DNA from: Thioclava sediminum
GTDB lineage: Bacteria > Pseudomonadota > Alphaproteobacteria > Rhodobacterales > Rhodobacteraceae
NCBI RefSeq assembly: GCF_002020355.1
Contig: NZ_MPZV01000001.1
Span: 744,001 to 808,000, forward strand
DNA: 64,000 nt
Reading direction: 5' to 3'
Notes under the pieces: generated by a model
Told to the model about the DNA's origin: nothing
Database searches by the model: none
Seen by the model: only the letters and a program-made list of their open reading frames with translations
Made by a program: the position numbers and the translations under genes
Shown here: piece by piece, positions 24,066 to 56,936 of the stretch
Position numbering within the stretch: the first letter of the stretch is position 1
Layout of the letters: every line of letters begins with the position of its first letter

Positions 24066-24212
24066 GGGGGCGCTGCCCCCTCTGGCCTCAGGGCCATTCA
24101 CCCCCGGGATATTTCGACCAAGGGGAAGAGGAAAGGCGCATCCCTCTCTTCGCTCTTGCACAAATATCCCGGGGGGCGCGCGCAAGCGCGGGGGGGGGGG
24201 GGCAGCGCCCCC
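24066..24212. repeat. Dispersed inverted-repeat element, copy A
   Basis: Outer arms GGGGGCGCTGCCCCC (24066-24080) and GGGGGCAGCGCCCCC (24198-24212) are exact reverse complements. Inner arms CCCCCGGGATATTT (24101-24114) and AAATATCCCGGGGG (24162-24175) are too. All are symmetric about 24138-24139. A further GAAGAG/CTCTTC pair lies near the centre. It sits 10 bases behind the ftsY stop and before the EamA gene. A run of 13 G (24190-24202) abuts the right arm. Confidence 0.85.
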
Positions 24213-24222
24213 CTTCCCGACG

Positions 24223-25497
24223 TCAGTCTTCGAGACCGACGAGGGCCTGCGCGAATTCCTCCGGATCGAAAGGCGCCAGATCGTCGAGTTGCTCGCCCAC
24301 CCCGATCGCGTGGATCGGCAGGCCGAACTTGTCGGCCAGCGCTACCAGAACGCCGCCCTTCGCGGTGCCGTCGAGCTTGGTCATCACGAGCCCCGACACG
24401 TTCGAGATCTTGCGGAAGACATCGACCTGTTGCAGGGCGTTCTGCCCCGTCGTCGCATCGAGCACGAGAAGCGTGTTATGCGGCGCGGTCTCGTCGACCT
24501 TGCGGATCACGCGCACGATCTTGGCGAGTTCTTCCATCAGGTCGGCGCGGTTCTGCAGCCGGCCTGCCGTGTCAATCATCAGAAGGTCCGCACCTTCGGC
24601 CTCGGCCTTCTTCATTGCATCATAGGCGAGCGAGGCCGGGTCCGAGCCTTCGGGCGCTGTCAGCACCGGCACTCCGGCGCGATCGCCCCAGACCTGCAGC
24701 TGTTCGACGGCGGCTGCGCGGAACGTATCGCCCGCCGCGATCACCACCTGCTTGCCGGCGGCGCGGAATTGCGAGGCGAGCTTGCCGATCGTCGTGGTCT
24801 TGCCCGAGCCGTTGACGCCGACCACCAGCACGACCTGCGGCTTCTTGGGGTAAAGCGGCAGCGGTTTCGCGACCGGCTCCATGATCCGGGCGACCTCTTG
24901 GGCCAGCAGCCCCTTGATCTCGGAGACCGAGAGCTTGCGGCCCATCCGCCCCTCCGCGAGGTTCGCCGAGACGCGCAGCGCGGTATCGACGCCCATGTCG
25001 GAGGCGATCAGCAATTCCTCGAGGCTCTCCAACATCTCGTCATCGAGGACGCGGCGCGGCTCGGCCACTTTCGCCTCGCCACCGCCGAAGATGCGCCCCA
25101 GAAGACCGGGCTTTTTCGGCTCGGGGCTGGGGCGCTCGGGCGCGGGCTCGACGTCGAGCGGCGCCTTGGCGATCTGCGCGTGCTCCTCCTCGACCGGTTC
25201 GGTCACCGGCGCGGGCACGTAGCCAGGCGCGGGCGGGGTCGGATCGGGGAGGTTGATCGTCTCGCTGTGCTGCGGCTCGGGTTCCGGCCCTGCCTCAGGC
25301 TCGGGCGCGGGTTCGGCGCGGGTCTGCGGCGCGGCCTCGGGGGAGGTCTCTGCGGGCGTCGCGGGCGCGGAAGGTTCCGGCGTCTCCGCGACCTCGTCTT
25401 CACTTGACGCATTCTCGGCGACGATATCCTCGAGGCCCTGCTCGAGCTTCGAGGAGGAACGCGTCAGACGCGATTTGAGCTTTTTGAAAAACGACAT
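24223..25497 (-). CDS. ftsY: Signal recognition particle receptor FtsY
   Basis: 424 residues. Membrane-docking GTPase for SRP-ribosome complexes. Basic amphipathic start (SFFKKLKSRLTRSSSKL), then an acidic Pro/Glu/Ala-rich A domain (about 25-125), and NG domain with G1 GVNGSGKTTTIGKL (about 228), DTFRAAA, G3 DTAGRLQN and G4 TKLDGTAKGG, ending IGVGEQLDDLAPFDPEEFA. Length is typical for alphaproteobacteria. The gene ends next to inverted-repeat copy A, which probably also marks its transcript end. Confidence 0.97.
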   Translation of the reverse strand: MSFFKKLKSRLTRSSSKLEQGLEDIVAENASSEDEVAETPEPSAPATPAETSPEAAPQTRAEPAPEPEAGPEPEPQHSETINLPDPTPPAPGYVPAPVTEPVEEEHAQIAKAPLDVEPAPERPSPEPKKPGLLGRIFGGGEAKVAEPRRVLDDEMLESLEELLIASDMGVDTALRVSANLAEGRMGRKLSVSEIKGLLAQEVARIMEPVAKPLPLYPKKPQVVLVVGVNGSGKTTTIGKLASQFRAAGKQVVIAAGDTFRAAAVEQLQVWGDRAGVPVLTAPEGSDPASLAYDAMKKAEAEGADLLMIDTAGRLQNRADLMEELAKIVRVIRKVDETAPHNTLLVLDATTGQNALQQVDVFRKISNVSGLVMTKLDGTAKGGVLVALADKFGLPIHAIGVGEQLDDLAPFDPEEFAQALVGLED

Positions 25498-25552
25498 GGA
25501 TCAGGCCTTTCCTTACGCTCCACCTAGTTCATCGCAGGCCCGGATGGAAGGC

Positions 25553-26191
25553 TTATCCCCCGGCAAAACCGGATCCCGCGCCCCAGCCGATCAAGGCCTG
25601 ACCGCCCCAGTAGAGCACCCAGAGCGCGCGTGCCGCCAGCTGTTTGCGGCCAGCGTCGCGCAGCACGAACATCTCCAGCGCGAGGATCAGGTCAGAGAGG
25701 ACGAAGGCGAGGCTGCCCACGACCACCATCAGATAGCCCGCAGGCAGGCCCATCGCCACCGCCGCCATCGCCACGATGATCCAGATATAGCTGCGCACCG
25801 GCCAGCACAGTCCGCCCGTGCGCGGCAGCAGCCAGAACTCCGCCGAGAGCCCCAGCGCGATGAGCGGGATAGTCCAGGCGGAGGGCTGCGCGCCCATGTC
25901 GAGGAACCCCAGAAGATAGGCCAGATGCCCCGCAGCAAAAGCCGCCATGCCGATCAGGAAGGCCCGCTGGCCGGGGCGCGACAGGGCGAAATCGCCCGCC
26001 GCCCCGAGCGCGAGACCTGCGAGGATCGCAAGCGGCGCGCCCATGGCCGCCGCCATCGGAATCAGCGCCACGACGGAGGCGGTCTTCACAAGGGTTTTCG
26101 CACCGCTTTCCCCAGCACCCGCATGACGTGCGAGGTAAATCAGCGCGAAGACGGCGGCGATGAGGAGACTGATCGGGGCTGCGGACATCAT
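25553..26191 (-). CDS. YhhN/TMEM86-type membrane protein (lysoplasmalogenase family)
   Basis: 212 residues from ATG 26191 (a second ATG follows at once; a TTG at 26227 would add 12). Seven to eight predicted helices. The conserved acidic positions of the family are seen in LGAAGDFALS (first Asp) and FVLSDLILALEMF (second Asp), which are thought to form the active site for vinyl-ether lysophospholipid hydrolysis in the mammalian enzymes. Activity in bacteria is less settled. Divergent from the AlkB-like gene. It is separate from ftsY by 55 bases. Confidence 0.85.
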   Translation of the reverse strand: MMSAAPISLLIAAVFALIYLARHAGAGESGAKTLVKTASVVALIPMAAAMGAPLAILAGLALGAAGDFALSRPGQRAFLIGMAAFAAGHLAYLLGFLDMGAQPSAWTIPLIALGLSAEFWLLPRTGGLCWPVRSYIWIIVAMAAVAMGLPAGYLMVVVGSLAFVLSDLILALEMFVLRDAGRKQLAARALWVLYWGGQALIGWGAGSGFAGG

Positions 26192-26289
26192 GGCCACATC
26201 TCGCGCAGAAAAGCCCGGCCGTCGCAAGCGGGGTCATAAAAGGGTCGAAATTGGCGAAAGAATAGCGCAAAACCATTGCACTATTGAGA

Positions 26290-27507
26290 GTGAGCGAAGC
26301 GGACCCGCAGCACGTGACCCAAGGCAAAGACCCTTCACGCAAGCGCCGCCTGAGCGGAGCAATTGCCAATCTGCTGCGGCGGTCGCGCGAGATCCCCGGG
26401 GTCGACAGTTTCGCTGTCGTGACGCTTCTGCCGGTGCCGCTTCTGCTGGTGGCGGGCGTCTTCGGCGGGATCGCGGCCTGGGCGGCGCTGGTCTGGATCG
26501 GGCTGTGCATGTTCATCCTGGATGAGGCACTGAAGCATCCCTCCCCCGATGCGCCGGAAGGCTCCGAATTCCCGGCAGCGGACGCGCTGTCGACGACGCT
26601 GGCGGTGGTGCATTTCGTGCTGCTCGTGCTCGGCGTGGCGGCGATGTCGGGGCATACGATGCTGGAGGGGCCGAGCTGGATCGCGGTCTGGCTGGCCTTC
26701 GGGCTGTTCTTCGGGCAGGTTTCGAATTCGAACGCGCATGAGTTGATCCACCGCTCGGACAAACGTCTGTTTCTGCTGGGGAAATGGGTCTATATCTCGC
26801 TGCTCTTCGGGCATCACACCTCGGCGCATCGGCTCGTCCATCACCGTTTCGTCGCGACGCCGGACGATCCGAATTCCGCGCAGCTTGGCGAGGGGTTCTG
26901 GTCCTTTGCGCCGCGAGCCTGGATCGGCAGCTTCGTCGGCGGCTACGAGATGGAGCGCAACCGCTTCGCCCGTCTGCCCGCGATCGACCCGAAAGCGCCG
27001 CTGAGCGCGCGGATCAAGGCGAGGATCGCGCGGCTCGGTCCCTACCCGTCCTATCTGCTGGGCGGGCTGTGGTTCGCGGTGCTGTTCGGGATGCTCTTCG
27101 GGGCCGAGGGCGTGGTGGCTTACCTGATGCTCTGCGCCTATGCGCAGGTGCAGATCCTGCTCGCCGATTACGTCCAGCATTACGGCCTATCTCGGAGGCG
27201 GCGTGGCGATGGCAGTTTCGATCCGGTGGATGCGCATCACAGCTGGGACGCGCCCGCGCCGATCACCTCGCTGTGGATGCTCAACGCGCCGCGCCATTCG
27301 GATCACCACGCACATCCGGCCCGAGAATATCCGGCGCTGCGGCTTGGCGATCTGACCGAGACGCAGCGGCCCGTCCTGCCGCGCAGCCTGCCCGCGATGG
27401 CGGCGCTGGCGCTGTTCCCGCCGCTGTGGCGCCGGGTCATGGACAAGCGCGTGAAGGCCTTGGGCAAAGCGCAGCCAGTCGGCTCCGACGCGCCCAGCGC
27501 GCGCTAG
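26290..27507 (+). CDS. AlkB-type membrane alkane/fatty-acyl monooxygenase
   Basis: About 405 residues, from GTG 26290 (TTG 26284 and GTG 26314 are alternatives; none has a good ribosome site). Integral-membrane di-iron hydroxylase with the full set of histidine boxes: NAHELIHR, HHTSAHRLVHH, and NAPRHSDHHAHP, plus HHSWDAP. The order and the extra QHYGL block match alkane 1-monooxygenases rather than fatty-acid desaturases. Around four to six membrane helices. It would oxidise a terminal methyl group using electrons from rubredoxin. No rubredoxin, rubredoxin reductase, alcohol dehydrogenase or AlkS-type regulator is adjacent, so the natural substrate is uncertain. Confidence 0.88.
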   Translation: MSEADPQHVTQGKDPSRKRRLSGAIANLLRRSREIPGVDSFAVVTLLPVPLLLVAGVFGGIAAWAALVWIGLCMFILDEALKHPSPDAPEGSEFPAADALSTTLAVVHFVLLVLGVAAMSGHTMLEGPSWIAVWLAFGLFFGQVSNSNAHELIHRSDKRLFLLGKWVYISLLFGHHTSAHRLVHHRFVATPDDPNSAQLGEGFWSFAPRAWIGSFVGGYEMERNRFARLPAIDPKAPLSARIKARIARLGPYPSYLLGGLWFAVLFGMLFGAEGVVAYLMLCAYAQVQILLADYVQHYGLSRRRRGDGSFDPVDAHHSWDAPAPITSLWMLNAPRHSDHHAHPAREYPALRLGDLTETQRPVLPRSLPAMAALALFPPLWRRVMDKRVKALGKAQPVGSDAPSAR

Positions 27508-27564
27508 GCAAGCGGGCCGCGATCTGGCAGGTTGGGTGAAAGACCTTGCCGGAGCCTTCCCCCC

Positions 27565-27987
27565 ATGCGCCCGAACCCGATCTTGACATTGTCCCTCGCG
27601 GCCTTGGCCCTGATACCGACGCTTGCGCGTGCCGCCGACCCGCTCGGCCCACCGCTCAATGCGGAGCAATTCGATCAGCGCACCGTCGGGCGCACCATCA
27701 CCTATTCGGTCTTCGGCCAACCCTACGGCTCCGAGCAATACAAGCCCGGCCACAAGGTGATCTGGGCCTTCACCGAAAGCGAGTGCAAGGAAGGCGACTG
27801 GTATCAGGACGGGCAGTATATCTGCTTCGATTACGGCGAATACGCGCCGCTGCAATGCTGGACCTTCTACGACACGGCGCAGGGGCTGCTCGCACAGTTC
27901 AAGGGTGATCCCTCGCAGGAACCGCTGGTGAGCCTGTCCGAAAGTCAGGATCCGCTGGTCTGTCAGGGCCCCGACGTCGGCGTCTAA
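27565..27987 (+). CDS. Secreted protein of unknown function with conserved cysteines
   Basis: 140 residues. Signal peptide at 1-22 (ILTLSLAALALIPTLARA). The mature part has an early block FDQRTVGRTITYSVFGQPYG and four Cys (SECKEG, YICFDYG, LQCWTF, LVCQG) that could form two disulfides in the periplasm. I recognise it only as a type of small exported protein common in Rhodobacterales; no function is known. It converges with xseA, whose end is three bases away. Confidence 0.7.
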   Translation: MRPNPILTLSLAALALIPTLARAADPLGPPLNAEQFDQRTVGRTITYSVFGQPYGSEQYKPGHKVIWAFTESECKEGDWYQDGQYICFDYGEYAPLQCWTFYDTAQGLLAQFKGDPSQEPLVSLSESQDPLVCQGPDVGV

Positions 27988-27990
27988 GCC

Positions 27991-29571
27991 TCAGAACAGG
28001 CTGCCCTGAGACGGGCCCGGTTCGGGCTTTTTCTTCTTCGGCTTCGGCGCGGTCGCACTGCCGCCCCCGCCCGGGATGACCGCAAGCTTGCCATCGGCGA
28101 ACTCGATCTCGAGGCCGGGCTGCTTCTCTGCCACCCCCTGCGAGGTCACCACGCCGTCAGGCCCGCGCACCACCGCATAGCCGCGCTTGAGCGTCTCGGT
28201 ATAGCCCAGCGTCTGGCGCATCCGATCGAGCCGCTCGAGCCGTTCGCGCTGCGCCTCGAGCCGCGCGGGCAAGGAGCGCTCCAGCCGGGCTTCCAGCCCC
28301 GCCAGCCGCTCCGCGCCGTCGCGGTTGCGCCGTTGCGCATCGCCGATCATCCGCACCCGCGCTGCATCCAGCCGCCGCGCAAGCTGCGTATGATCCTGGG
28401 TCGCGCGCCGCATCCGGGCCGCCGGTGCCGGCGCCAACCGCGCCGACAAGCCGTCGATCTCACGCGAGCGGTCCCGGATGAAGCGCCGCAGCAGGTTCGG
28501 CGAAATTTGTGCAGCCAAGGGCGCGAAGCGGGTATTCTTGCGCAGGACCAGCGTGCGCAGCGCAGGCCCCAGCCGCTCGGCCCAGAGATCGAAGCTTTGC
28601 CGCGCCGGTTGCGTTAGCGCCTCGGGACGGCCCAGCCCGCGCGCCAGATCGCGCAGCCGCTGGCCGCGCTGATCGAGCCGCCCGCGCGCCGCCCGCATCA
28701 TCCGCGTCTGTGCCTCCGACAGCCACGCGGCCAGTTCGGCGCGCACCGGCACCGCCATTTCCGCCGCCGCCGTGGGCGTGGGGGCACGCCGGTCGGCGGC
28801 GTGATCCACCAGCGTCGTATCGGTCTCGTGACCCACGGCCGAGATCACCGGGATGTCGCTTTCGGCCACGGCGCGGACCACGGCTTCTTCGTTGAACCCC
28901 CAAAGGTCTTCGATCGAGCCGCCGCCGCGTGCGACGATGATCAGATCGGGGCGCGGGATCTCCCCACCCGGCGCCAACGCGTTGAAGCCCCGCACCGCGC
29001 GGGCCACCTCGGGCGCGCAGGCCTGTCCCTGCACCGCCACCGGCCAGATCAGCACATGGCGCGGGAAGCGGTCGGCGAGCCTGTGCAGGATGTCGCGGAT
29101 CACCGCGCCCGAGGGCGAGGTCACCACGCCGATCACCTGCGGCAACCACGGAATGGGCTTCTTGCGGCCCGCGTCGAACAGCCCCTCGGCGGCCAGCGCC
29201 TTGCGCCGCGCCTCCAGCATCGCCATCAGCGCGCCCGCGCCCGCCGGTTCGACATTGTCGACGATCAGCTGGTATTTCGACTGCCCCGCGAAGGTCGTCA
29301 TCCGGCCCGTGGCGATGACCTCCATCCCCTCCTCGGGGCGGACCTGCATTTTCGCCACCTGCCCCTTCCAGCTGACGGCGGCGATCACCGAGCGGTCGTC
29401 CTTGAGGTCGAAATACATATGCCCCGAGCGCGGCATCGACACCCGGCCCACTTCGCCGCGCACCCGGACGCGGCCGAATTCCCCCTCGATCACGCGTTTC
29501 ACCGCCCCCGAAATCTCGGAGACCGTGTAGTCATGCGCGTTCGAGCCGCTTTCGTCGTCGAGAAGGTCCAT
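27991..29571 (-). CDS. xseA: Exodeoxyribonuclease VII large subunit
   Basis: 526 residues. Catalytic subunit of the single-strand nuclease that repairs and processes DNA. N-terminal OB fold (about 15-110, FGRVRVRGEVGRVSMPRSGH), then the nuclease domain with GVVTSPSGAVIRDI (about 150), ARGGGSIEDLWGFNEE (about 212) and SAVGHETDTTLVDHAAD (about 240), followed by a long Arg/Ala/Leu coiled coil and a Lys-rich end. The partner xseB is not in the window. ATG 29571 gives the usual MDLLDDESGSNAH start. Divergent from purD across 93 bases. Confidence 0.95.
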   Translation of the reverse strand: MDLLDDESGSNAHDYTVSEISGAVKRVIEGEFGRVRVRGEVGRVSMPRSGHMYFDLKDDRSVIAAVSWKGQVAKMQVRPEEGMEVIATGRMTTFAGQSKYQLIVDNVEPAGAGALMAMLEARRKALAAEGLFDAGRKKPIPWLPQVIGVVTSPSGAVIRDILHRLADRFPRHVLIWPVAVQGQACAPEVARAVRGFNALAPGGEIPRPDLIIVARGGGSIEDLWGFNEEAVVRAVAESDIPVISAVGHETDTTLVDHAADRRAPTPTAAAEMAVPVRAELAAWLSEAQTRMMRAARGRLDQRGQRLRDLARGLGRPEALTQPARQSFDLWAERLGPALRTLVLRKNTRFAPLAAQISPNLLRRFIRDRSREIDGLSARLAPAPAARMRRATQDHTQLARRLDAARVRMIGDAQRRNRDGAERLAGLEARLERSLPARLEAQRERLERLDRMRQTLGYTETLKRGYAVVRGPDGVVTSQGVAEKQPGLEIEFADGKLAVIPGGGGSATAPKPKKKKPEPGPSQGSLF

Positions 29572-29664
29572 ATGCCTGCCTGCTTGAGCGTTGGTCCGGG
29601 GCGCCTTGCCTCAGGGTTTCGCGCAGCTTAGAAGGCGAGAAAGCGAAGGCCAAGGGGGCGAGCG

Positions 29665-30930: not shown

Positions 30931-31375
30931 CCCGAGGGGTGGAGGGGGCGCTGCCCCCGCTCGCGTTCCGCGCGCCCCCCGGGATATTTCCACCAAGAGG
31001 AAGACGCGCAACGAAGTCTTAACGACAGCTGCGTTAACAAGGAATCGCGGAACAGGCGGGGACGCCGATGACCGCCCAAGACGAACGTGCCCGGCTCGCC
31101 CGCCCTTCTGCGGATCGAGTCGGGCATTTTCCGGTTTCGGTTTGGCTCAAATATCCCGGGGGGCTGGCGCAGCCAGCGGGGGCAGAGCCCCCTCGCCTGG
31201 CGCAGGAAAACTCCGTCATGGTGAAGATGTGCCAGCCCCGGCTTGCAGCATTTGCCGCTCCCACTGAGGCAAAGCACCGCCTGCCGAAACGTCAGGCAGG
31301 AAAATTCCTCTTCGCGCAAAATTTCCTCTTGCAGCCTACGCCGCTATCCCCTAAATCCGCCTCCACCGAACCGGC
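30931..31375. other. Gene-free stretch between purD and the tRNA-Gly pair
   Basis: About 445 bases. The first 260 are inverted-repeat copy B. Near the centre of that repeat a TTAACG/CGTTAA inverted pair (about 31018-31036) stands out from the GC-rich background. After the repeat, 31193-31375 contains only short ORFs without ribosome sites; it probably holds the promoter for the tRNA genes, but I cannot pick the boxes with confidence. Confidence 0.5.
30944..31192. repeat. Dispersed inverted-repeat element, copy B (long loop)
   Basis: Outer arms GGGGGCGCTGCCCCC (30944-30958) and GGGGGCAGAGCCCCC (31178-31192, one mismatch). Inner arms CCCCCGGGATATTT (30976-30989) and AAATATCCCGGGGG (31149-31162) are exact. 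Both pairs centre on 31068-31069. The loop is about 160 bases, longer than in the other copies. It lies 13 bases behind the purD stop. Confidence 0.85.
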
Positions 31376-31450
31376 GCGGGCGTAGCTCAGGGGTAGAGCA
31401 TAACCTTGCCAAGGTTAGGGTCGGGCGTTCGAATCGCCTCGCCCGCTCCA
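31376..31450 (+). tRNA. tRNA-Gly (GCC), first copy
   Basis: Acceptor stem GCGGGCG pairs with CGCCCGC; D-arm AGCTCAGGGGTAGAGC; anticodon arm ACCTT-GCC-AAGGT with anticodon GCC; T-arm GGGCGTTCGAATCGCC; discriminator T and an encoded CCA. 75 nt including CCA. All stems pair as expected. Confidence 0.97.
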
Positions 31451-31472
31451 GTTCGGTCAAATACCCAAGGAT

Positions 31473-31547
31473 GCGGGCGTAGCTCAGGGGTAGAGCATAA
31501 CCTTGCCAAGGTTAGGGTCGGGCGTTCGAATCGCCTCGCCCGCTCCA
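31473..31547 (+). tRNA. tRNA-Gly (GCC), second identical copy
   Basis: Identical to the tRNA at 31376-31450 over its whole length, including the encoded CCA, and 22 bases downstream of it. Followed after four bases by an intrinsic terminator, so the pair forms one transcript. Confidence 0.97.
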
Positions 31548-31551
31548 ATAC

Positions 31552-31579
31552 AAAAAAGCCTCCCTTCGGGGAGGCTTTT
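31552..31579 (+). terminator. Intrinsic terminator of the tRNA-Gly transcript
   Basis: A-rich start, GCCTCCC (31558-31564), TTCG tetraloop, GGGAGGC (31569-31575), then TTTTG. A classic strong hairpin. Confidence 0.92.
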
Positions 31580-31674
31580 GTCTTTCCGCCCCACTGCTCG
31601 TCAATCGACATGCCCCCGCTTGAGCGCGCCCCCTGCCCCGGCCTATAAGGCGGTGAGTTTCAAGGAGGCGCCCC

Positions 31675-33610: not shown

Positions 33611-33617
33611 AAAAGCA

Positions 33618-43525: not shown

Positions 43526-43720
43526 ATGCCCCCTCTGTCCGTGCCTGCCATGCAGACGCCTGAGATCGTTATCCCTTCGGCGGATGCCGCGCTTGCGCAC
43601 AGCATCACTCTCCAGAGTCCTTCGTCGGGCACGGTCCTTTTGCCTGAGAGTTTACCGGGGCGGTTGCTCCTTCGGCACCGAGGTTTCCCCCGGATTCTCC
43701 CGTATCCGACTTCTCCCGAT
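43526..43720 (-). promoter_or_regulatory. Tandem glycine riboswitch controlling gcvT-gcvH-gcvP
   Basis: On the minus strand the first aptamer (about 43705-43612) shows GCCGAAGGAGCAA, AACTCTCAGGCAAAAGGACC and closing ACTCTGGAGAG. The second (about 43611-43526) shows CCGCCGAAGGGATAACGATC, CTCAGGC and GGACAGAGGGG. These are the conserved blocks of the gcvT element. Binding of glycine normally turns the operon on. It ends some 60 bases before the gcvT start, leaving room for an expression platform over the ribosome site. Confidence 0.93.
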
Positions 43721-48112: not shown

Positions 48113-48172
48113 CCTCACACTCCTTTGAAACAGCACGGGAGAGGTCATAGCGCACCATCCCTTAACACTGCG

Positions 48173-48201
48173 TTGACAGGCGCGAGCTTCGCGCCGCAAA
48201 G
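48173..48201 (+). promoter_or_regulatory. Possible pfkB promoter with a palindrome filling the spacer
   Basis: TTGACA (48173-48178) is followed by exactly 17 bases, GGCGCGAGCTTCGCGCC (48179-48195), which is a perfect inverted repeat with a GCT centre. A weak -10-like GCAAAG comes next. Start of pfkB is 28 bases on. The palindrome may be an operator. The -35 also overlaps TTAA-N7-TTGA (48162-48176), one base from a CtrA site. Confidence 0.35.
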
Positions 48202-48228
48202 TCGGGCTCTGGGCCAAAAGGAGACGCG

Positions 48229-49176: not shown

Positions 49177-49238
49177 GCACTCTGCCCCTTTGCCTCGCGG
49201 CACCTGCGCGTTATGAAAGCGCCAAAGGAGCGCCGCCC

Positions 49239-50000
49239 ATGCTGAAGACCCGCATCATTCCCTGTCTCGACGTCGCCGACGGCCGCGTCGTGAAAGGCGT
49301 CAATTTCGTGAACCTGATCGACGCGGGCGACCCGGTCGAAGCCGCCAAGGCCTATGACGCGGCGGGCGCCGACGAGCTGTGTTTCCTCGACATCCACGCG
49401 ACGCATGAGAACCGTGGCACGATGTTCGATCTGGTGACCCGCACCGCCGAGCAGTGTTTCATGCCGCTCACCGTGGGCGGCGGTGTGCGCACGCATGAGG
49501 ACGTGCGCGCGCTGCTGCTGGCCGGGGCCGACAAGGTCTCGTTCAACTCCGCCGCCGTGGCCGATCCGAACGTCATTACCGAGGCCGCCGACCGTTTCGG
49601 CAGCCAGTGCATCGTCTGCGCGATCGACGCCAAGACCGTGGAGCCGGGCCGCTGGGAGATCTTCACCCATGGCGGGCGCAAGCCCACCGGGATCGACGCG
49701 GTGGAATTCGCGCGCACCGTGACTGCGAAGGGCGCGGGGGAAATCCTGCTGACCTCAATGGATCGCGACGGCACCCGCGCGGGCTTCAATCTGGAGCTGA
49801 CGAAGGCGATCTCGGACGCGGTCGACGTGCCGGTGATTGCCTCCGGCGGCGTCGGCAATCTCGATCATCTGGTGGAAGGCGTGACCAAGGGCGGGGCTTC
49901 GGCCGTTCTCGCCGCCTCGATCTTCCACTTCGGCGAATACACGATCCGCGAGGCCAAGGAATACATGGCCGCCGCGGGCATTCCGATGAGGCTGCAATGA
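49239..50000 (+). CDS. hisF: Imidazole glycerol phosphate synthase, cyclase subunit
   Basis: 253 residues. (beta/alpha)8 barrel partner of HisH. Catalytic Asp11 in [16 protein letters not shown], second catalytic Asp in [11 protein letters not shown] (about 130), GGGVRTHED and ASGGVGN at the phosphate sites. ATG 49239 follows AAAGGAG. The stop overlaps the hisE start by four bases (ATGA). Confidence 0.97.
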
Positions 50001-50308
50001 GCATTCTGGACCAACTCGCCGCGACCATCGAGAGCCGTAAAGGCGCCGATCCCGACACGTCGTGGACCGCGAAGCTGCTGGCCAAGGGCCCGGAGAAATG
50101 CGCCGAGAAATTCGGCGAGGAAGCGGTGGAAGCGATCATCGCCGCGGCCAAGAACGACCGCGAAAATCTGACTTATGAGGCGGCGGATGTGCTCTATCAC
50201 CTCTTGGTGATGCTGGCGGCGCGCGACGTGAAGCTGGACGATGTGCTCGCCGAACTGGAGCGCCGCGAAGGAACCTCCGGCATCGCCGAGAAAGCGGCCC
50301 GCAGTTAA
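49997..50308 (+). CDS. hisE: Phosphoribosyl-ATP pyrophosphatase
   Basis: 103 residues. Second step of histidine synthesis. All-alpha MazG-like fold with the metal-binding [14 protein letters not shown] and [14 protein letters not shown] motifs. Coupled to hisF by a four-base overlap. An inverted-repeat copy begins at the base after its stop codon. Confidence 0.97.
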
Positions 50309-50440
50309 GGGGCGCTGCCCCTCTGCCTTGCGGCATTCACCCCGGGATATTTCTCAAGAGCGAAGGCGCGGTCCGTGCCTGTCTTCGCTCATGCCGAAAT
50401 ATCCCGGGGGTGAGGGCTGCGCCCGAGGGGGCTGGCCCCC
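50309..50440. repeat. Dispersed inverted-repeat element, copy C
   Basis: Outer arms GGGGCGCTGCCCC (50309-50321) and GGGGGCTGGCCCCC (50427-50440, imperfect); inner arms CCCCGGGATATTT (50340-50352) and AAATATCCCGGGG (50397-50409) exact; GAGCGAAG/CTTCGCTC near the centre. All centre on 50374-50375. The first base follows the hisE TAA directly, with only 50 bases to the next gene start. Confidence 0.85.
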
Positions 50441-50490
50441 TTTCCCCGCGCGAACCGCGTGCTAGCTGGCCTCTCAAACAGGAGGCTTTC

Positions 50491-51522
50491 ATGGCACAGA
50501 CGACCGACACCAACCGCAAGATCATCCTCGCCGAACGCCCGAAAGGCGCGCCGGACGAAAATACGCTGAAGCTCGAGACAGAGGCCGTGCCGCAACCCGG
50601 CAAAGGCGAGATGCTGCTGCGCACCGTCTGGTTGTCGCTCGACCCCTATATGCGCGGGCGGATGTCGGATGCGAAATCCTACGCAACCCCGGTCGAGATC
50701 GGCGGCGTGATGACCGGTCAGGTCGTGGCCGAGGTCATGGAGAGCGATGTCGCGGGCTTCTCGAAGGGCGATTATGTGCTCTCGCCCTCGGGCTGGCAGG
50801 ACTTCTTCGTCTCGGATGGCACGCAAGTGCTCAATCTCGGGCCGGAGCCGGAGAACCCGAGTTGGGCCTTGGGTATTCTGGGGATGCCGGGCTACACGGC
50901 CTATGCGGGCCTGCTGAAGATCGGCGAGCCGAAACCGGGCGAGACGGTGGTGGTTGCGGCCGCCTCCGGGCCGGTCGGCGCGACGGTCGGCCAGATCGCC
51001 AAGATCAAGGGCTGCCGCGTCGTCGGCGTCGCGGGCGGGGCCGAGAAATGCGCCCATGTCACCGACACGCTGGGGTTTGACGCCTGCATCGACCACCGCG
51101 CCGAGGATTTCGACGAGCAACTGGCCGCAGCCTGCCCCGACGGGATCGACGTCTATTTCGAGAATGTCGGCGGCAAGGTGCTCTACGGCGTACTGCCACT
51201 GCTCAACCCCTTCGCGCGGATGCCGGTCTGCGGCATGGTCGCGTGGTATAACCTGCAAGGCCTGCCCGAGGGGCCCGATCACGGCCCGCAGATCCTCTCG
51301 ACGATCCTGCGCATGAAGGTGAAGGTGCAGGGCTTCATCATCTTCGACAGCTTCCCGATCGAGCTCTATCAGGAATTCTCCGAAGCGATGACCGGCTGGC
51401 TGAAAGAGGGCAAGGTTCAGTACAAGGAGCAGGTGGTGGAAGGCCTCGAAGCCGCGCCGCAGGGGCTCTACGACCTGCTGGAGGGCCGCAATTTCGGCAA
51501 GATGGTCGTGAAAGTCGGCTAA
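50491..51522 (+). CDS. NADP-dependent oxidoreductase, MDR superfamily (CurA/leukotriene B4 dehydrogenase type)
   Basis: 343 residues. Zinc-free medium-chain reductase. Opening with RTVWLSLDPYMRGRM typical of this branch; Rossmann segment VVVAAASGPVGATVGQIAKIKGCRVVG (about 148-175) and DGIDVYFENVGGKVL, ending NFGKMVVKVG. Family members reduce the alkene bond of enones and related aldehydes. Strong AGGAGG site before ATG 50491. Stands alone between copy C of the repeat and terB. Confidence 0.92.
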   Translation: MAQTTDTNRKIILAERPKGAPDENTLKLETEAVPQPGKGEMLLRTVWLSLDPYMRGRMSDAKSYATPVEIGGVMTGQVVAEVMESDVAGFSKGDYVLSPSGWQDFFVSDGTQVLNLGPEPENPSWALGILGMPGYTAYAGLLKIGEPKPGETVVVAAASGPVGATVGQIAKIKGCRVVGVAGGAEKCAHVTDTLGFDACIDHRAEDFDEQLAAACPDGIDVYFENVGGKVLYGVLPLLNPFARMPVCGMVAWYNLQGLPEGPDHGPQILSTILRMKVKVQGFIIFDSFPIELYQEFSEAMTGWLKEGKVQYKEQVVEGLEAAPQGLYDLLEGRNFGKMVVKVG

Positions 51523-51588
51523 AAGCGAGACAGGCGCGCAGGGCTTTCGCATCCGTGACTTGCCCTGCGCCGCGCATCGCTTATCTCT

Positions 51589-52038
51589 ATGCCTATGTTT
51601 GGACGCCTCTTCGATATGCTCAACGATCCCGCCCCCGATCCGATGGAGGGGGCCGATCGCGAATTGGCGCTTGGCGCACTTCTGGTGCGGCTCGCGCGGT
51701 CGGATGAAAACTATACCGAAGAGGAGAAAACCCGGATCGACCGGGTTCTCGCTCAGCGCAACGGGCTCTCGGGCTTCGAAGCGACCGAGATGCGCAAGCG
51801 CGCCGAAGAGGTCGAGGCGGGCGCGCCCGACACGGTCCGCTTCACACGCGCGCTGAAGGACAAGGTCGCCTATGAGGACCGCACCGGCGTGATCGAGGCG
51901 CTGTGGGACGTGGCGCTGGCCGATGGCGTGCGCGATGCCCATGAGGATGCGTTGATACGCCTCGCGGCGAAGCTTCTGGGCGTCAACGATGTCGATTCGG
52001 CGGTGGCGCGGCAACGCGTCGAAGCGCGCCGCACCTGA
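51589..52038 (+). CDS. TerB-like (tellurite-resistance B) protein
   Basis: 149 residues. All-helical TerB fold with the acidic motif ARSDENYTEEEKTRIDRVL (about 36-54) and a second half WDVALADGVRDAHEDALIRL; the two Asp/Glu-rich repeats are characteristic. Cytosolic. Often a metal- or chaperone-linked helper; no direct function known. Two ATGs (51589 and 51595) are possible. Unlike classic ter loci, no terC, terD or terZ is adjacent, so tellurite resistance is not implied. Ends in a strong terminator. Confidence 0.85.
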   Translation: MPMFGRLFDMLNDPAPDPMEGADRELALGALLVRLARSDENYTEEEKTRIDRVLAQRNGLSGFEATEMRKRAEEVEAGAPDTVRFTRALKDKVAYEDRTGVIEALWDVALADGVRDAHEDALIRLAAKLLGVNDVDSAVARQRVEARRT

Positions 52039-52055
52039 ATTCGACGGGCAAGGCA

Positions 52056-52088
52056 GCGCGGGGCGTGACCGCTCCGCGCCTGTTTTTT
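52056..52088 (+). terminator. Intrinsic terminator after terB-like gene
   Basis: GCGCGGGGCG (52056-52065), TGAC loop, CGCTCCGCGC (52070-52079; one G-T wobble), then CTG and TTTTTT. Confidence 0.9.
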
Positions 52089-52201
52089 CCTCAGATGCTC
52101 GTGATTTCGGCCCCTTCCCCATCGTCAACCGGGCAGACGCAGTTGCATTCACCGGTCAAATCGCGCCAGATTGCGCGGATGGACAAAGAGAAGCTGCCTG
52201 C

Positions 52202-52996
52202 GTGACCCGAAACGAGCCTGCGCCCAAAGACGCGCCCGTCATCGAAATCCGTGACCTTTACAAGAGCTACGGCTCGCTCGAGGTGCTCAAGGGCGTCTCG
52301 ATCACCGCGCCGCGCGGCCATGTGGTGTCGTTGATCGGCTCCTCCGGCTCGGGCAAATCGACCCTCTTGCGGTGCTGCAACCTGCTTGAAGACAGCCAGA
52401 AGGGCGATGTGATCTTCGAAGGCGAGTCTGTGCATTGGCGTGGCGAGGGGCTCAATCGTCGCCCTGCCGACCGCGCGCAGGTCACCCGGTTCCGCACCAA
52501 CCTGTCGATGGTGTTCCAGCAGTTCAATCTCTGGGCGCACATGACGATCCTGCAGAACGTGATGGAAGCGCCGGTGACGGTGCTGGGCCGCGACAAGGCA
52601 GAGGTCGAACCGCTGGCGCGCCAGTTGCTCGACAAGGTCGGCATCGGCGACAAATGCGACGCCTGGCCCGCGCAGCTCTCGGGCGGCCAGCAGCAGCGCG
52701 CGGCGATCGCGCGGGCGCTGTGCATGGAGCCCAAGGCGCTTCTCTTCGACGAGCCCACCTCGGCGCTCGACCCGGAATTGCAGCAAGAGGTGGTGAAGGT
52801 CATCAAGGACCTCGCCGCCGAACACCGCACCATGATCCTCGTCACCCATGACATGCGACTGGCGCGTGACGTCTCCGACCACGTCGTCTTCCTGCATCAG
52901 GGCAAGATCGAGGAAGAGGGCCCGCCAGAGGCTCTGTTCGGCGCGCCGAAATCGACGCGCCTGCAACAATTCCTGTCGGCCACCGCGCCGGCGTGA
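52202..52996 (+). CDS. Amino acid/amine ABC transporter, ATP-binding protein
   Basis: 264 residues from GTG 52202, the only sensible start giving a family-length N-terminus (VIEIRDLYKSYGSLEVLKGV). Walker A GSSGSGKST (about 50), Q-loop FQQFNLW, signature LSGGQQQRAAIARALC, Walker B LLFDEPTSALDPE, switch His in THDM. Polar-amino-acid (PAAT) ATPase subgroup, like HisP/GlnQ. First gene of the ATPase - binding protein - permease - permease - ligase operon. Confidence 0.93.
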   Translation: MTRNEPAPKDAPVIEIRDLYKSYGSLEVLKGVSITAPRGHVVSLIGSSGSGKSTLLRCCNLLEDSQKGDVIFEGESVHWRGEGLNRRPADRAQVTRFRTNLSMVFQQFNLWAHMTILQNVMEAPVTVLGRDKAEVEPLARQLLDKVGIGDKCDAWPAQLSGGQQQRAAIARALCMEPKALLFDEPTSALDPELQQEVVKVIKDLAAEHRTMILVTHDMRLARDVSDHVVFLHQGKIEEEGPPEALFGAPKSTRLQQFLSATAPA

Positions 52997-53028
52997 ACCA
53001 ACCCAAGAATTAACAACGGGGAACCAAA

Positions 53029-53751
53029 ATGAAAAAACTGATCCTGACCGCTGCCATCCTCGGCCTTTCGGCTGGCGTCGCTGCGGCACAGACCGTCCGC
53101 ATGGGCACCGAGGGCGCCTACCCTCCCTACAACTTCATCGACGATAACGGTGAAGTCGCGGGCTTCGAGCGCGAACTCGGCGACAAGCTGTGCGAGATGG
53201 AGAGCCTCGACTGCACCTGGGTCACCAATGACTGGGATTCGATCATCCCGAACCTGCTCTCGGGCAACTACGACACGATCATGGCTGGCATGTCGATCAC
53301 CGCTGAGCGTGAGAAGACCATCGACTTCACCCAGGCCTATTACCCGCCGGCGGCCTCGTCCTACATGGCGATGGACCCGGGCGCGGATCTCAAGGGCGGC
53401 GTGATCGCGGCACAGACCGGCACCATTCAGGCGGCGCATGTCGCTGAAACCGGCGCGACGCTGGCCGAATACGCGACCCTCGACGACACGATCGCCGCCG
53501 TGAAGAACGGTGAGGCCGACGCGGTCTTCGCCGACAAGGACGCGCTCAAGCCCTTCGCGGGCCAGGACAACATGGAATTCGTGGGCGACGACGTGCAGCT
53601 CGGCAAAGGCATCGGCATCGGCCTGCGCAAGTCCGACACCGAGCTGAAGGACAAGTTCAACGACGGCATTTCCAAGCTGAAAGCCGATGGCACGCTCAAC
53701 GAACTGCTCAAGAAGTATTTCGGCGACGACGCCCTGACCTTCAAGAACTGA
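53029..53751 (+). CDS. Amino acid/amine ABC transporter, periplasmic binding protein
   Basis: 240 residues. Signal peptide at 1-20 (ILTAAILGLSAGVAAAQ). Family 3 solute-binding fold: MGTEGAYPPYNFIDDNGEVAGFERELGD near the start, WDSIIPNLLSGNYDTIMAGMSIT, DFTQAYYPPAAS and ADAVFADKDAL. Resembles HisJ/ArtJ-type proteins for basic or opine-like ligands; the aromatic YPPYNF and DSIIP motifs bind the alpha-amino group. Two Cys (LCEMESLDCTW) likely bonded. Followed by a stem-loop that may raise its mRNA level. Confidence 0.94.
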   Translation: MKKLILTAAILGLSAGVAAAQTVRMGTEGAYPPYNFIDDNGEVAGFERELGDKLCEMESLDCTWVTNDWDSIIPNLLSGNYDTIMAGMSITAEREKTIDFTQAYYPPAASSYMAMDPGADLKGGVIAAQTGTIQAAHVAETGATLAEYATLDDTIAAVKNGEADAVFADKDALKPFAGQDNMEFVGDDVQLGKGIGIGLRKSDTELKDKFNDGISKLKADGTLNELLKKYFGDDALTFKN

Positions 53752-53763
53752 TCCAGAAAACGA

Positions 53764-53791
53764 GGCCGGGGCGGCATGAGCCGCTCCGGTC
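53764..53791 (+). other. Intercistronic stem-loop after the binding-protein gene
   Basis: CCGGGGCGGC (53766-53775), ATGA loop, GCCGCTCCGG (53780-53789), with two further outer pairs possible. No T-run follows. Such hairpins commonly protect the upstream mRNA so that binding protein outnumbers permease. Confidence 0.6.
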
Positions 53792-53806
53792 CCGACCGAA
53801 AGTCCG

Positions 53807-54685
53807 ATGTTCGAAAGCTGTTCCGATCCCTCTGCCCTTCACGGGCTTGGCTGGCTGCTCTGCTACCTGACCACAGGTAAGCAGATCATGTTCTATGGCT
53901 CGTTCGGCATCGTGCTGATCCTGCTGGCCGTGACCGCGCCGGTGGCGCTGATCTTCGGCTTCGGCGGGGCGCTGGCCGCCCGGTCGAGCGCCGCCCCGCT
54001 GCGCTTTCTCGGACGGGGCTACATCGCGATGGTGCGCGGTGTGCCCGACATCATCTTCTTCCTTTTCGTGCCGATCGCGATGGACCAGGGGCTTGAGTAC
54101 CTGAAGTCACGCGCAGTCTGCCCCGATCCCGGCCCAGCCTGGACGGGTAACGAATTCCACGTCTGTGCCTCCGCGAAAATCCCGCTCGGCACGGCCCCGC
54201 AATTCTATCACGAGGCCTATGGCTTCGCGCTGGCCGTGGTGGCCTTCTCCATCGTCTACGGCGCCTTCGCCGCCAACGTGCTGTTCGGCGCGATGCAGGC
54301 GGTGCCGCGCGCGCAGCTGGAGACCGCCGAGGCCTACGGCATGACCCGCGCGCAGGTGAACCGCCGGGTGCTGATCCCGCAGATGTGGGCCTATGCGATC
54401 CCCGGTCTGTCGAACCTCTGGATGATCCTCATCAAGGCAACGCCGCTGCTGTTCCTTCTGGGCATCGAGGATATCGTCTATTGGGCGCGCGAACTGGGCG
54501 CGACCAAGTCGAGCATCTACGCCTATCCGCATCCCGACTGGCGTCTGTATTACTTCCTCGTGCTGCTGGTCTTCTATCTGGTGATGACCAAGCTATCCGA
54601 GATCGTGCTGGCCCGCATCAACCGCCGCCTCGCCTTCGGGCAGGCCACGGCGGCCGGGGAAGCGCTGAGAAAGGCGGACGCATGA
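53807..54685 (+). CDS. Amino acid/amine ABC transporter, permease 1 (HisQ-like)
   Basis: 292 residues. About five to six helices with the EAA motif ETAEAYGMTRAQVNRRVLIP (about 167-186) that docks on the ATPase. A Cys-containing periplasmic loop (SRAVCPDPGPAWTGNEFHVC) is an unusual insert near 103-122. The start at ATG 53807 has only a weak ribosome site; the stop overlaps the next start by four bases. Confidence 0.92.
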   Translation: MFESCSDPSALHGLGWLLCYLTTGKQIMFYGSFGIVLILLAVTAPVALIFGFGGALAARSSAAPLRFLGRGYIAMVRGVPDIIFFLFVPIAMDQGLEYLKSRAVCPDPGPAWTGNEFHVCASAKIPLGTAPQFYHEAYGFALAVVAFSIVYGAFAANVLFGAMQAVPRAQLETAEAYGMTRAQVNRRVLIPQMWAYAIPGLSNLWMILIKATPLLFLLGIEDIVYWARELGATKSSIYAYPHPDWRLYYFLVLLVFYLVMTKLSEIVLARINRRLAFGQATAAGEALRKADA

Positions 54686-55509
54686 GCTGCATTCAGACCA
54701 TCGCGGATTACGGGCTGCGGTCGATCGGGATCGGCGAGCGGCTGCTGCCGCGCTCCGATTTCACGATGTGCCAGCAATTCACCCTGATCGGCTCGGGGAT
54801 GATCTGGAACCTCTATTTCGGCATTCTCGCGCTTCTGGCAGGGTTCTTCCTCGCCACGACGCTCGCGGTGGCGAAGAACTCCGATCGCGCGATCTTCCGC
54901 AAACCGGCGGAATGGTTCATCTTCCTGTTCCGCGGCTCGCCGCTCTTCATCCAGTTCTTCCTCGCCTACGAGGCCTTCGCGATGCTGCCCCGTGCGGGCT
55001 TCCCGATCCTCGGGATCACGGTCGCGACGGACTGGATCACGCGGGCCTGGGCAGGCGCACTGATTGTGCTGTTCTTCAACACCTCCGCCTATGCCGCCGA
55101 GATCTTCTACGGCGCGCTGCGCTCCGTGCCGAAAGGCGACATGGAAGCCGCGGACGCCTACGGCATGACCGGCTGGACCAAGTTCCGCCGCGTGACATGG
55201 CCAACGATGCTCCGGCTCGGCTGGCCGTCCTACACCAACGAGGCGATCTTCCTGTTCCACGCCACCACGCTCGTGTTCTTCTCGGGCTTCCCGGCGTTCC
55301 GGCAGGAGGGCGACGCGCTCTACTACGCGAAATATTTCGCGGACAAGACCTTCAATCCCTTCATCCCCTACCCGATCGCGGCGTTCTACTTCATTCTGCT
55401 CACGCTCTGCGTCATCGCGGTCTTCGGGGTGATCAACCGCCGCCTGAACCGCCATCTGCCGCAGGAAAGCCGCGAGCGCTTCCGGTTCAGGCCGCAGATT
55501 ATCAGGTGA
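54682..55509 (+). CDS. Amino acid/amine ABC transporter, permease 2 (HisM-like)
   Basis: 275 residues, heteromeric partner of permease 1. Membrane segments from about 35, SPLFIQFFLAYEAF, and EAA motif MEAADAYGMTGWTKFRRVTWP (about 152-172). Ends with a basic tail (RRLNRHLPQESRERF). Starts inside the preceding stop (ATGA) and ends three bases before the ligase gene. Confidence 0.92.
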   Translation: MSCIQTIADYGLRSIGIGERLLPRSDFTMCQQFTLIGSGMIWNLYFGILALLAGFFLATTLAVAKNSDRAIFRKPAEWFIFLFRGSPLFIQFFLAYEAFAMLPRAGFPILGITVATDWITRAWAGALIVLFFNTSAYAAEIFYGALRSVPKGDMEAADAYGMTGWTKFRRVTWPTMLRLGWPSYTNEAIFLFHATTLVFFSGFPAFRQEGDALYYAKYFADKTFNPFIPYPIAAFYFILLTLCVIAVFGVINRRLNRHLPQESRERFRFRPQIIR

Positions 55510-55512
55510 CAC

Positions 55513-56844
55513 ATGAACTGGCTGCACGACCATCCCGACGTTCGCACGATCCGCGTGGCGGCGGCCGATCTCAACGGGGTGGCGCGCGGCAAGCGCCTGC
55601 CAGCCCGCTTCGCCGATAAGGTCTTCACCGAAGGGACGCGTTTCCCCTATTCGGTCATGAATCTCGACATCTGGGGCGAGGATGTCGAAGACAGCCCGCT
55701 TGTCTTCGAGTCCGGCGATGCCGACGGGCTTCTGATGCCGACCGAGCGGGGCTTCCTGCCGATGCCGTGGCTCTCGGCGCCGACCGCGCTGCTGCCGATC
55801 TGGATGTTCCACATGGACGGCAAGCCCTATGCGGGCGATCCCCGGCAGGCGCTGGCGCGCGTGGTGGAACGCTACAAGGCGCTGGGGCTGACCCCGGTGG
55901 TCGCAACCGAGCTGGAATTCTTCCTGATCGACGACAGCGGCAAGACCCTGCGCGTGCCGCCCTCGCCCCGCTCGGGCAAACGCCGCACCGGCGGTGAGGT
56001 GCTGAGCTTGCGCGCGCTCGACGCGTTCGACATCTTCTTCAGCCAGCTCTACGACGCCTGCGAGGCGATGGATATTCCCGCCGATACCGCGATCTCCGAA
56101 GCGGGTCCGGGGCAGTTCGAGATCAACCTTTCGCACCAGCCCGACCCGCTGAAAGCCGCCGATGACAGCTGGCTGTTCAAGATGCTGGTGAAAGGGCTCG
56201 CGCGCGCGCACGGCTTCGCCGCGTCGTTCATGGCCAAGCCTTACGACGAATGGCCCGGCAACGGGATGCATATGCATTTCTCGGTGCTCGACGCCGAGGG
56301 CAACAACATCTTCAACGACGGCACGCCGCAGGGCTCGGACCAGATGCGCCACGCGGTTGCCGGGTGTCTGGCCGCGATGGAGGGCTCGGGCCTGATCTTC
56401 GCGCCGCATGAGAACAGCTATGATCGGCTCGTGCCCGACGCCCATGCGCCGACCGGCATCGCCTGGGCCTATGAGAACCGCACCGCGGCGCTGCGCATCC
56501 CGGCCTCGGGGCCGCAGGCGCGCCGGATCGAGCATCGCGTGGCGGGCGGCGACGTGAACCCCTACTTGATGATCGCGGCAATCTTGGGCGCGGCCCTGAT
56601 CGGGATCGAGGACAAGATGGAAGCGCCCGAGCCGATCAAGGGCAACGCCTATGCGCTCGACCTGCCGCAGATGCCGACCGACTGGGAAGCGGCGATCAAC
56701 GCCTTCCAGAATTGCGAGATCATGCCGCGCATCTTCGACCGCGACCTGATCACCAATTTCGCCATGACCAAGCGGCAGGAGTTGCATTACATGGCGGAGC
56801 TGTCGGATCAGGAACAGACCGAGCTTTATCTGGATACCGTCTAA
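55513..56844 (+). CDS. Glutamine-synthetase-like ligase (gamma-glutamylpolyamine synthetase type)
   Basis: 443 residues. GS catalytic fold: RVAAADLNGVARGKRLP start, TELEFFLID, EAGPGQFEINL, the ammonia/amine and ATP region NGMHMHFSVLD, RTAALRIPASG and RRIEHRVAGGDVNPYLM. Lacks the adenylylation-loop tyrosine motif of GlnA and is closest in style to PuuA/IpuC-like enzymes that join glutamate to amines. It is the last gene of the ABC importer operon, so it probably captures the imported amine by glutamylation (inference). Followed at once by inverted-repeat copy D. Confidence 0.88.
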   Translation: MNWLHDHPDVRTIRVAAADLNGVARGKRLPARFADKVFTEGTRFPYSVMNLDIWGEDVEDSPLVFESGDADGLLMPTERGFLPMPWLSAPTALLPIWMFHMDGKPYAGDPRQALARVVERYKALGLTPVVATELEFFLIDDSGKTLRVPPSPRSGKRRTGGEVLSLRALDAFDIFFSQLYDACEAMDIPADTAISEAGPGQFEINLSHQPDPLKAADDSWLFKMLVKGLARAHGFAASFMAKPYDEWPGNGMHMHFSVLDAEGNNIFNDGTPQGSDQMRHAVAGCLAAMEGSGLIFAPHENSYDRLVPDAHAPTGIAWAYENRTAALRIPASGPQARRIEHRVAGGDVNPYLMIAAILGAALIGIEDKMEAPEPIKGNAYALDLPQMPTDWEAAINAFQNCEIMPRIFDRDLITNFAMTKRQELHYMAELSDQEQTELYLDTV

Positions 56845-56936
56845 GGGGGCGCTGCCCCCGCGCTGACGCGCTCCCCCGGGATATTTCCGTCAAGGGGAAG
56901 GGAAAGGCCGGGTGCAGGCAGAGGGGCCGCGCCCCT
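56845..56936. repeat. Dispersed inverted-repeat element, copy D (right half altered)
   Basis: Left outer arm GGGGGCGCTGCCCCC (56845-56859) starts at the base after the TAA of the ligase gene, and CCCCCGGGATATTT (56873-56886) follows. The matching AAATATCCCGGGG arm is missing. A shorter AGGGGC-CGC-GCCCCT hairpin (56922-56936) closes the element and overlaps the MATE stop codon. Confidence 0.7.

Follow-up and report, generated by a model that had tools for sequence, protein, structure and literature searches.

A dispersed family of 3'-end hairpin repeats in Thioclava sediminum and a candidate small RNA with a segment that matches their arms

Repeats of the repetitive extragenic palindromic (REP) kind are usually attributed to a protein or left unexplained. 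The short natural guides of the scaRNA, CreA and TnpB-related types consist of a scaffold followed by a short segment, and their target lies beside a fixed flank. The subject of this report is a family of hairpin repeats represented by four copies, A to D, in a 64,000-nucleotide stretch of the Thioclava sediminum genome, together with a candidate small RNA gene that lies inside copy B. This stretch, the window, is positions 744001-808000 of contig C1 of the source genome, G000 (C1, C2 and C4 are contig labels of this genome). A first-pass annotation had described the copies as symmetric inverted repeats placed right behind stop codons, and had proposed a family like REPs or bacterial interspersed mosaic elements (BIMEs) that is mobile or acts in mRNA 3'-end formation. 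Among the closest described systems, a rayt gene (encoding a REP-associated tyrosine transposase, RAYT) is flanked by two inverted REPs in the cases presented in passages of PMC2817692; the non-coding RNA naRNA4 of REP325 in Escherichia coli is linked to REPs and is reported, in parts of PMC6907758 and PMC12306157, to target DNA with cruciforms; and a portion of PMC8450116 concerns insertion sequence elements of the ISPpu9 type, which lie in REPs and have small RNAs that regulate the transposase.

We favour, at a probability of about 0.6, a two-part system: hairpin units repeated at many gene 3' ends, and a small RNA with a segment that pairs with them. The first part would be units of about 59 bp scattered at gene 3' ends with a lineage-specific arm; the second would be a gene for a small RNA, in many cases with a unit on either side, made up of a scaffold hairpin, an exposed segment that differs little from the arm and a hairpin resembling a terminator. 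The RNA would be made, and its segment would pair in trans with the arm's complementary strand, using G.U pairs in the middle of the segment. At the sequence level this reading rests on the units, on the predicted fold of the RNA, on a segment that matches the arm in one genome after another, and on the one-sided way in which the two differ. Expression, binding, the target strand and the effect are what we infer, while the link between the two parts and the RNA fold rest on sequence.

The unit can be recognized by the motif CCCCGGGATATTT, of which the source genome has 112 exact matches (57 forward and 55 reverse, against none for the reversed control), and the four copies belong to a genome-wide family. 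The motif was found in 15 of 16 genomes of the genus and in 171 of 295 of the family Rhodobacteraceae. A second form of the left flank, GCCTCCGGCGGGGATATTT, occurs in 152 of the 295 family genomes, with 33 copies in the source genome and none in the window, and a search for dispersed units in G440, G538 and G455 gave only three exact matches of one left-flank variant. Alignment in register of 100 fetched copies of the 112 gives the order hairpin 1 (GGGGGC-KCT-GCCCCC), a variable hairpin 2, CCCCGGGATATTT, about 3 nt and an 11-nt arm, over a length of about 57-59 bp according to BLAST self-matches. Every unit ends with GGATATTT-NNN-arm, the arm being 11-13 nt long and specific to the lineage. 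These 100 copies resolve into 68 single units and 16 facing pairs (84 elements); in genome G128 the positions listed for its 87 copies are all more than 300 bp apart, and some units face the second form. Hairpin 2 is rarely the same in two units (82 distinct sequences among the 85 units parsed from the 100, 15 having been dropped without a usable first hairpin or length), and its halves fit each other within a unit, with a mean stem of 4.98 against 3.49 when they were reshuffled between units (maximum of 500 shuffles, 3.84). At several loci of the source genome, for example upstream of the units at C2:382897 and C4:327447, a unit is often preceded by a second tandem module, GGGGGCTCTGCCCCC-GTCGCC-GGGCGAC-AA.

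Placement was counted for the 81 or 79 usable elements of the 84, in fetched regions selected around units. By gap type, 34 of 81 elements are convergent, 45 co-directional and 2 divergent (control gaps 17, 80 and 55, respectively); only 3 of 84 fall within a called gene or at the edge of a contig, and a stop codon lies at most 16 nt away in 53 of 79 (null mean 35, maximum 46 of 200). Single units in co-directional gaps occur in both orientations (20 versus 16). The proposed REP/BIME-like character is thus borne out, the family being large, palindromic, extragenic, of high copy number (112 exact 13-mers) and located at gene 3' ends. A role in 3'-end formation through replacement of terminators is not: intrinsic terminators outside the element are as common (19/72) as at size-matched control 3' ends (35/134), and an apparent deficit in a first count (8/114 versus 31/114) disappeared once the controls were size-matched. 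In convergent gaps alone, intrinsic terminators are fewer beside elements (14/44 versus 22/44 in controls). Within units the GC hairpins are followed by CCCCGGGATATTT and not by a T-run, and they do not qualify as intrinsic terminators themselves. A polarity of units along the replichores, suggested by a partial set of positions with + matches first, was ruled out by the full set.

Copy B holds the candidate small RNA gene between its two units, with a predicted scaffold, an exposed segment and a terminator-like hairpin. It lies behind purD, whose product has its closest named relatives in Thioclava marina (91% amino-acid identity) and T. indica (87%), and is arranged as follows.

30930: stop of purD, upstream of the left unit of B
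30944-31003, + strand: left unit of B; hairpin 1 at 30944-30958, motif at 30977-30989, arm CCAAGAGGAAG at 30993-31003
31004-31046, + strand: region upstream of the candidate RNA, with TTAAC motifs; a promoter is assumed here
31047-31075, + strand: 29-nt scaffold of the candidate RNA, GCGGAACAGGCGGGGACGCCGATGACCGC; predicted outer stem GCGG/CCGC, inner stem GGCG/CGCC, loop GGGA
31076-31086, + strand: exposed guide-like segment of 11 nt, CCAAGACGAAC; single-stranded in the minimum-energy fold
31089-31130, + strand: terminator-like hairpin GCCCGGCTCG...CGAGTCGGGC followed by ATTTT, judged from sequence and fold
31135-31192, - strand: right unit of B, facing the left unit; arm CCAAACCGAAA, motif at 31149-31161, hairpin 1 at 31178-31192

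The scaffold covaries as expected of a structured RNA. In 81 variants (86 distinct core matches reduced to 81 distinct 35-mers), 98.2% of cells are paired and there are 41 double-sided changes, neither value being reached by any of 500 shuffles; the cores from the family were found by an exact 21-mer, and the inner pairs were free to vary only in plasmid and near-match loci. No shuffle of 500 reached the covariation score, for which slid controls were also lower, and the count of scaffold pairs with a double-sided change, taken alone, was reached by 39 of 500. Among them, the inner stem shows G-C, U-A and C-G at its top, and the closing pair is variously G-C, A-U and G-U. Four example minimum-energy folds share the scaffold, with z values of -3.0 to -5.5, and leave the segment unpaired in the window copy.

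Of the 295 family genomes, 122 carry the RNA core, NAGGCGGGGACGCCGATGRCCG (control 0): 102 have a single copy, 18 have two and 1 has three, and the source genome has four. Its presence goes with that of the units, the core being found in 40 of 49 genomes with at least 20 exact units against 5 of 103 with neither unit pattern; beyond the family it was found in 3 of 384 other genomes in a sample of the class, nearly all of other families. Both framing units were found in 46 of 62 family loci, and by a simple rule the interior of this long form holds a hairpin and a T-rich run in 42 of the 62 (shuffled mean 5.8). At their purD loci, T. indica, T. marina, Szabonella and three Celeribacter genomes share the interior of B, which lies there in one orientation or the other. 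Among 30 RNA loci compared, many have TTAACC stretches upstream of the core, 7 share a gene pair that by eye resembles an acyl-CoA dehydrogenase and a CoA ligase, and 19 have no common neighbour gene within 1.5 kb. A protein reading from the ATG in the core was rejected, since the codons inspected by eye show no conserved C-terminal part. Neither the B region (at E<=1) nor 10 RNA-bearing loci matched a family in Rfam release 15.

The link between the two parts comes from a comparison of RNA segments with 44 units from five sites in each of 8 genomes. The segment matches the dispersed arms of its own genome at 8.74 of 10 positions and those of another genome at 6.19, the own segment being the best in 8/8, and of 40,320 permutations only the true pairing reaches the own-genome score. 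Dispersed arms also agree with the arms that flank their own RNA (9.77/10, against 6.61 for foreign ones; 8 genomes, 0 of 10,000 shuffles). The differences between arm and segment have a direction. When A>G and C>T are allowed the own match rises to 9.69/10, whereas allowing the reverse changes gives only 8.82, and in 96 distinct pairs the changes from arm to segment are A>G 95, G>A 3, C>T 4, T>C 1 and transversions 54, a count that omits two poor arm/segment alignments, takes both arms of one RNA separately and includes pairs related by descent. Of these 157 differences, 120 are at segment positions 0, 5 and 6. The A>G differences keep the pairing, because a G.U pair still forms with the arm's complementary strand. 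Two classes of arm are present in genome G114, whose second RNA copy carries the second class, as had been predicted before the sequence was fetched. In the source genome 95 of 100 units score at least 9/10 with one of the four own segments, compared with a mean of 33.6 and a maximum of 91 for four random foreign segments.

The same holds for the units of the window, those of A, C and D being placed as follows.

24066-24128, + strand: left unit of A; hairpin 1 at 24066-24080, hairpin 2, CCCCGGGATATTT at 24102-24114, arm CCAAGGGGAAG at 24118-24128
24148-24212, - strand: right unit of A, facing the left unit; starts 10 nt past the ftsY stop; arm CAAGAGCGAAG
24223-25497, - strand: ftsY; A sits between ftsY and an EamA-type gene
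50309-50365, + strand: left unit of C, directly after the stop of hisE (49997-50308); arm CAAGAGCGAAG
50384-50440, - strand: right unit of C, facing the left unit
56845-56903, + strand: D, a single unit directly after the stop of a glutamine-synthetase-type gene (55513-56844); arm TCAAGGGGAAG at 56890-56900; unit length from BLAST self-matches
56922-56936, no strand assigned: short hairpin AGGGGCCGCGCCCCT, unrelated to D, with 3 mismatches and without the inner arm

With G.U allowed, the arms of A-left, B-left and D score 10/10 with the RNA at C1:1494456, those of C-left and A-right score 10/10 and that of C-right 9/10 with the RNA at C2:859335, and the B-right arm scores 9/10 with B's own segment. 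The window has exactly seven exact matches to CCCCGGGATATTT, every one within A-D. Arm patterns with up to three mismatches are not rare in this GC-rich window (23 versus 12.5 expected, and 17 versus 12.8 expected); the signal lies in the exact matches and their arrangement.

The first-pass annotation had the arms, the coordinates and the common centres of A-C right, with loops of 47, 159 and 44 nt, and these three copies are two facing units each. Its account needs amendment at several points. The shared outer arms hold in general, though only imperfectly on the right of B and in C. The placement behind upstream stops is correct for B, C and D but not for A, which does not come after a stop on the + strand and begins 10 nt past the ftsY stop on the - strand. 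Copy D is not a symmetric inverted repeat but one unit, half of the arrangement, without the inner partner arm, and the hairpin at 56922-56936, which had been counted as its right arm, is a different sequence. B departs from the description in two further respects: its loop is no mere spacer, the 159-nt interior being conserved in other genera, and it does have a T-run, as the hairpin on the + strand of its interior is followed by ATTTT at the end of the candidate small RNA gene. As to other RNAs, Rfam matched only a glycine riboswitch and two tRNAs in the window; the riboswitch aptamer is at 43622-43712 (- strand), above the Rfam gathering score, and the two tandem tRNA-Gly (gcc) genes are at 31376-31547 (+ strand), just past copy B.

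Most sites are shared among close relatives. Those of A-D are occupied in G298, G305 and G302, and those of C and D in G307, where the compared stretch covers C and D. The mobility suggested in the first-pass annotation is, at least in the recent past, not apparent: all four sites of a 40-kb stretch are filled in three sister genomes (94-96% identity), and no extra exact-match site was gained there. A further comparison with sister genomes covered 45 of the 84 sites (39 were without fetched flanks), in stretches picked around matches, and presence is accordingly over-counted. The units themselves do change. Hairpin 2 of D is wholly different in the source genome from that in these four relatives, G302 has another sequence in place of the left half of C, G307 has a 13.8-kb insertion within the hairpin of the right unit of C, and one long form has its interior in opposite orientations in the source genome and G298, with modules lost between sister genomes. 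Over a wider range, a unit lies within 300 nt downstream of purD in 16 of 80 loci, ftsY in 6 of 40, xseA in 5 of 73 and another gene in 2 of 57, against 0/24, 0/30, 0/29 and 0/39 for four other genes. Descent thus accounts for most sites among close relatives, and certain gene ends bear units in more than one genus. At D, the synteny of the glutamine-synthetase-type gene with MatE breaks at or near the unit in the more distant relatives G254, G303 and G296; in G254 the match runs through unit D, so there the unit keeps its upstream neighbour while a different gene lies downstream.

Plasmids, including some of other orders, also carry the core or a near match to it: those of Cereibacter, Paracoccus, Leisingera, Phaeobacter, Mesorhizobium, Shinella, Rhizobium, Legionella, Thiothrix and others. 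Several of these matches lie no more than about 1 kb from a gene for a replication initiator, and some plasmid matches are probably due to chance, such as that of Sphingobium, which is inside acrB. Six small plasmids were compared for units. On the Mesorhizobium plasmid the segment CAAGGGTTAGGAC equals the arm of a unit about 950 nt away at 13/13 positions, and on the Shinella, Pseudosulfitobacter and Phaeobacter plasmids the unit arms differ from the segment at 1-2 positions. Phages and plasmids were rejected as carriers of the units: whole B had no plasmid match at E<=1e-5, and one viral contig has a Thioclava-type unit. The RNA core had no match in phage records.

Several observations weigh against the two-part system. 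The specificity is weaker when G.U is counted as a match, the own segment being best in 7/8 and 2 of 40,320 permutations reaching the score, because looser matching also helps foreign segments. In T. indica the units of the ftsY site (TCAAGAGGAAG) mismatch the segment of the purD site (ACACTTGGAAG), and a second RNA would be needed. Among the six plasmids, the adjacent unit on that of Paracoccus has three differences and that of Roseibium shows no unit for its segment. The exact core is missing in 9 of 49 high-copy genomes, in a search that covered the exact core and not variants, and two of the four example folds (L242 and L329) pair part of the segment with downstream bases. A TnpB-type partner, the only effector family tested, is not indicated: PF07282 is above cut-off in only 15 of 295 genomes. 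(The source genome has one such match above cut-off, at C1:1272461-1272664.) Orientation barely affects the match, with units opposite both neighbours slightly worse (11/26 perfect versus 17/29). Finally, part of the match could be due to copying of one arm, because the RNA is framed by units in 46 of 62 family loci.

Such copying is central to the main alternative, which we consider rather improbable: a REP-like family, or one of miniature inverted-repeat transposable elements, with a long master copy, in which the interior is cargo or part of the master, the arms are copied and the RNA does not act in trans. The facing units have the look of inverted repeats, and the framing of most long forms by two of them (46/62) would resemble that of rayt between inverted REPs in passages of PMC2817692; the long form also occupies different places, because 19 of 30 loci share no neighbour gene within 1.5 kb, and the inversion of its interior and the loss of modules between sister genomes would fit as well. 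What copying leaves unexplained is the excess of A>G (95) over G>A (3) at fixed positions. The segment, moreover, is not a unit, lacks GGATATTT and sits after the scaffold, Mesorhizobium and Pseudosulfitobacter plasmids have a matching unit apart from the RNA, and the source genome has no Y1 transposase, nor was a site gained in the 40-kb stretch of the sister genomes. The one-sided differences and the distant plasmid units together argue against a master copy.

It is unlikely that the units are simply mRNA 3'-end elements, stable hairpins by an AU-rich site that protect or define processed ends, with the RNA incidental. Their position near stop codons and almost never in divergent gaps, the upkeep of their hairpins by paired changes, the unit that stays with D's upstream gene in G254 and the lower number of intrinsic terminators in convergent gaps (14/44 versus 22/44) are all as this would predict, but the overall terminator content equals that of size-matched controls, both orientations are used (20 versus 16 co-directional singles) and the arm-segment match is left unexplained. 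Less likely still, the arm could be the DNA site of a fast-evolving DNA-binding protein, and the copy in the RNA gene its operator; arms that are short, common within a genome and different between genomes would suit such a site, which predicts neither an A>G bias that preserves pairing with the complementary strand nor a scaffold that covaries as RNA. We give hardly any credence to REP elements moved by a RAYT (Y1) transposase. The general anatomy is that of REPs and BIMEs, but PF01797 (Y1_Tnp) has no match in the source genome and occurs in 30 of 295 family genomes and only 2 of 49 high-copy genomes, and no common GT(A/G)G head was seen by eye in 100 copies, in which units begin with GC hairpins of the GGGGGC type.

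For the two-part system, the target would more likely be the DNA of the units, opened or extruded as a hairpin, than one class of mRNA, because the units occur in both orientations with similar match quality; for the three common orientation settings, 24 to 40 of 26 to 41 units reach 9/10. The units would serve as address labels, and the RNA would read them, probably together with a protein partner; possible consequences are nucleoid contacts, control of the unit population or effects on 3' ends. We put forward, as a tentative generalization, that this is an RNA-addressed repeat system in which a compact guide RNA (29-nt scaffold and 11-13-nt guide), with a putative partner, reads repeat DNA beside a fixed GGATATTT-NNN genome-wide, the guide changing in step with the repeats, on the chromosomes and small plasmids of several proteobacterial orders. 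With the variable part of the repeat matched by a segment of a dedicated, structurally conserved RNA in the same genome or plasmid, what maintains or reads such repeats becomes testable, and if the pairing is real this would be a compact RNA recognition module matching no Rfam release 15 family where tested.

Neither the repeat nor the RNA was found described in the open-access literature, as judged by titles and abstract openings; a sequence-based literature search returned only papers on unrelated organisms, and Rhodobacter is not named in the passages of PMC3733652, PMC12306157 and PMC2817692 consulted. The repeats alone would fall among the REP-like kind. They share with REP/BIME and RAYT systems, as presented in passages of PMC2817692 and PMC3733652, the high-copy extragenic palindromes, the facing pairs and the compensatory stem changes, and copy B recalls the special locus flanked by two inverted copies in PMC2817692. 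They differ from these in the absence of a RAYT and of a GT(A/G)G head and in the variable 11-nt arm outside the hairpins, with an RNA gene in the place of rayt; the repeats are thus REP-like but outside REP/RAYT. No search result paired a dedicated structured RNA with a repeat family like this. Unlike the scaRNA, CreA and TnpB-related guides, the candidate RNA has a terminator-like hairpin after its segment, and its targets would be repeats. ISPpu9-type elements, in the part of PMC8450116 concerned, likewise bring small RNAs and REPs into one context, the difference being that no such transposase gene was found beside B. The nearest working analogy is naRNA4 of REP325; according to parts of PMC6907758 and PMC12306157 naRNA4 is encoded within the REP element, whereas here a dedicated scaffold carries a segment that matches the repeats genome by genome.

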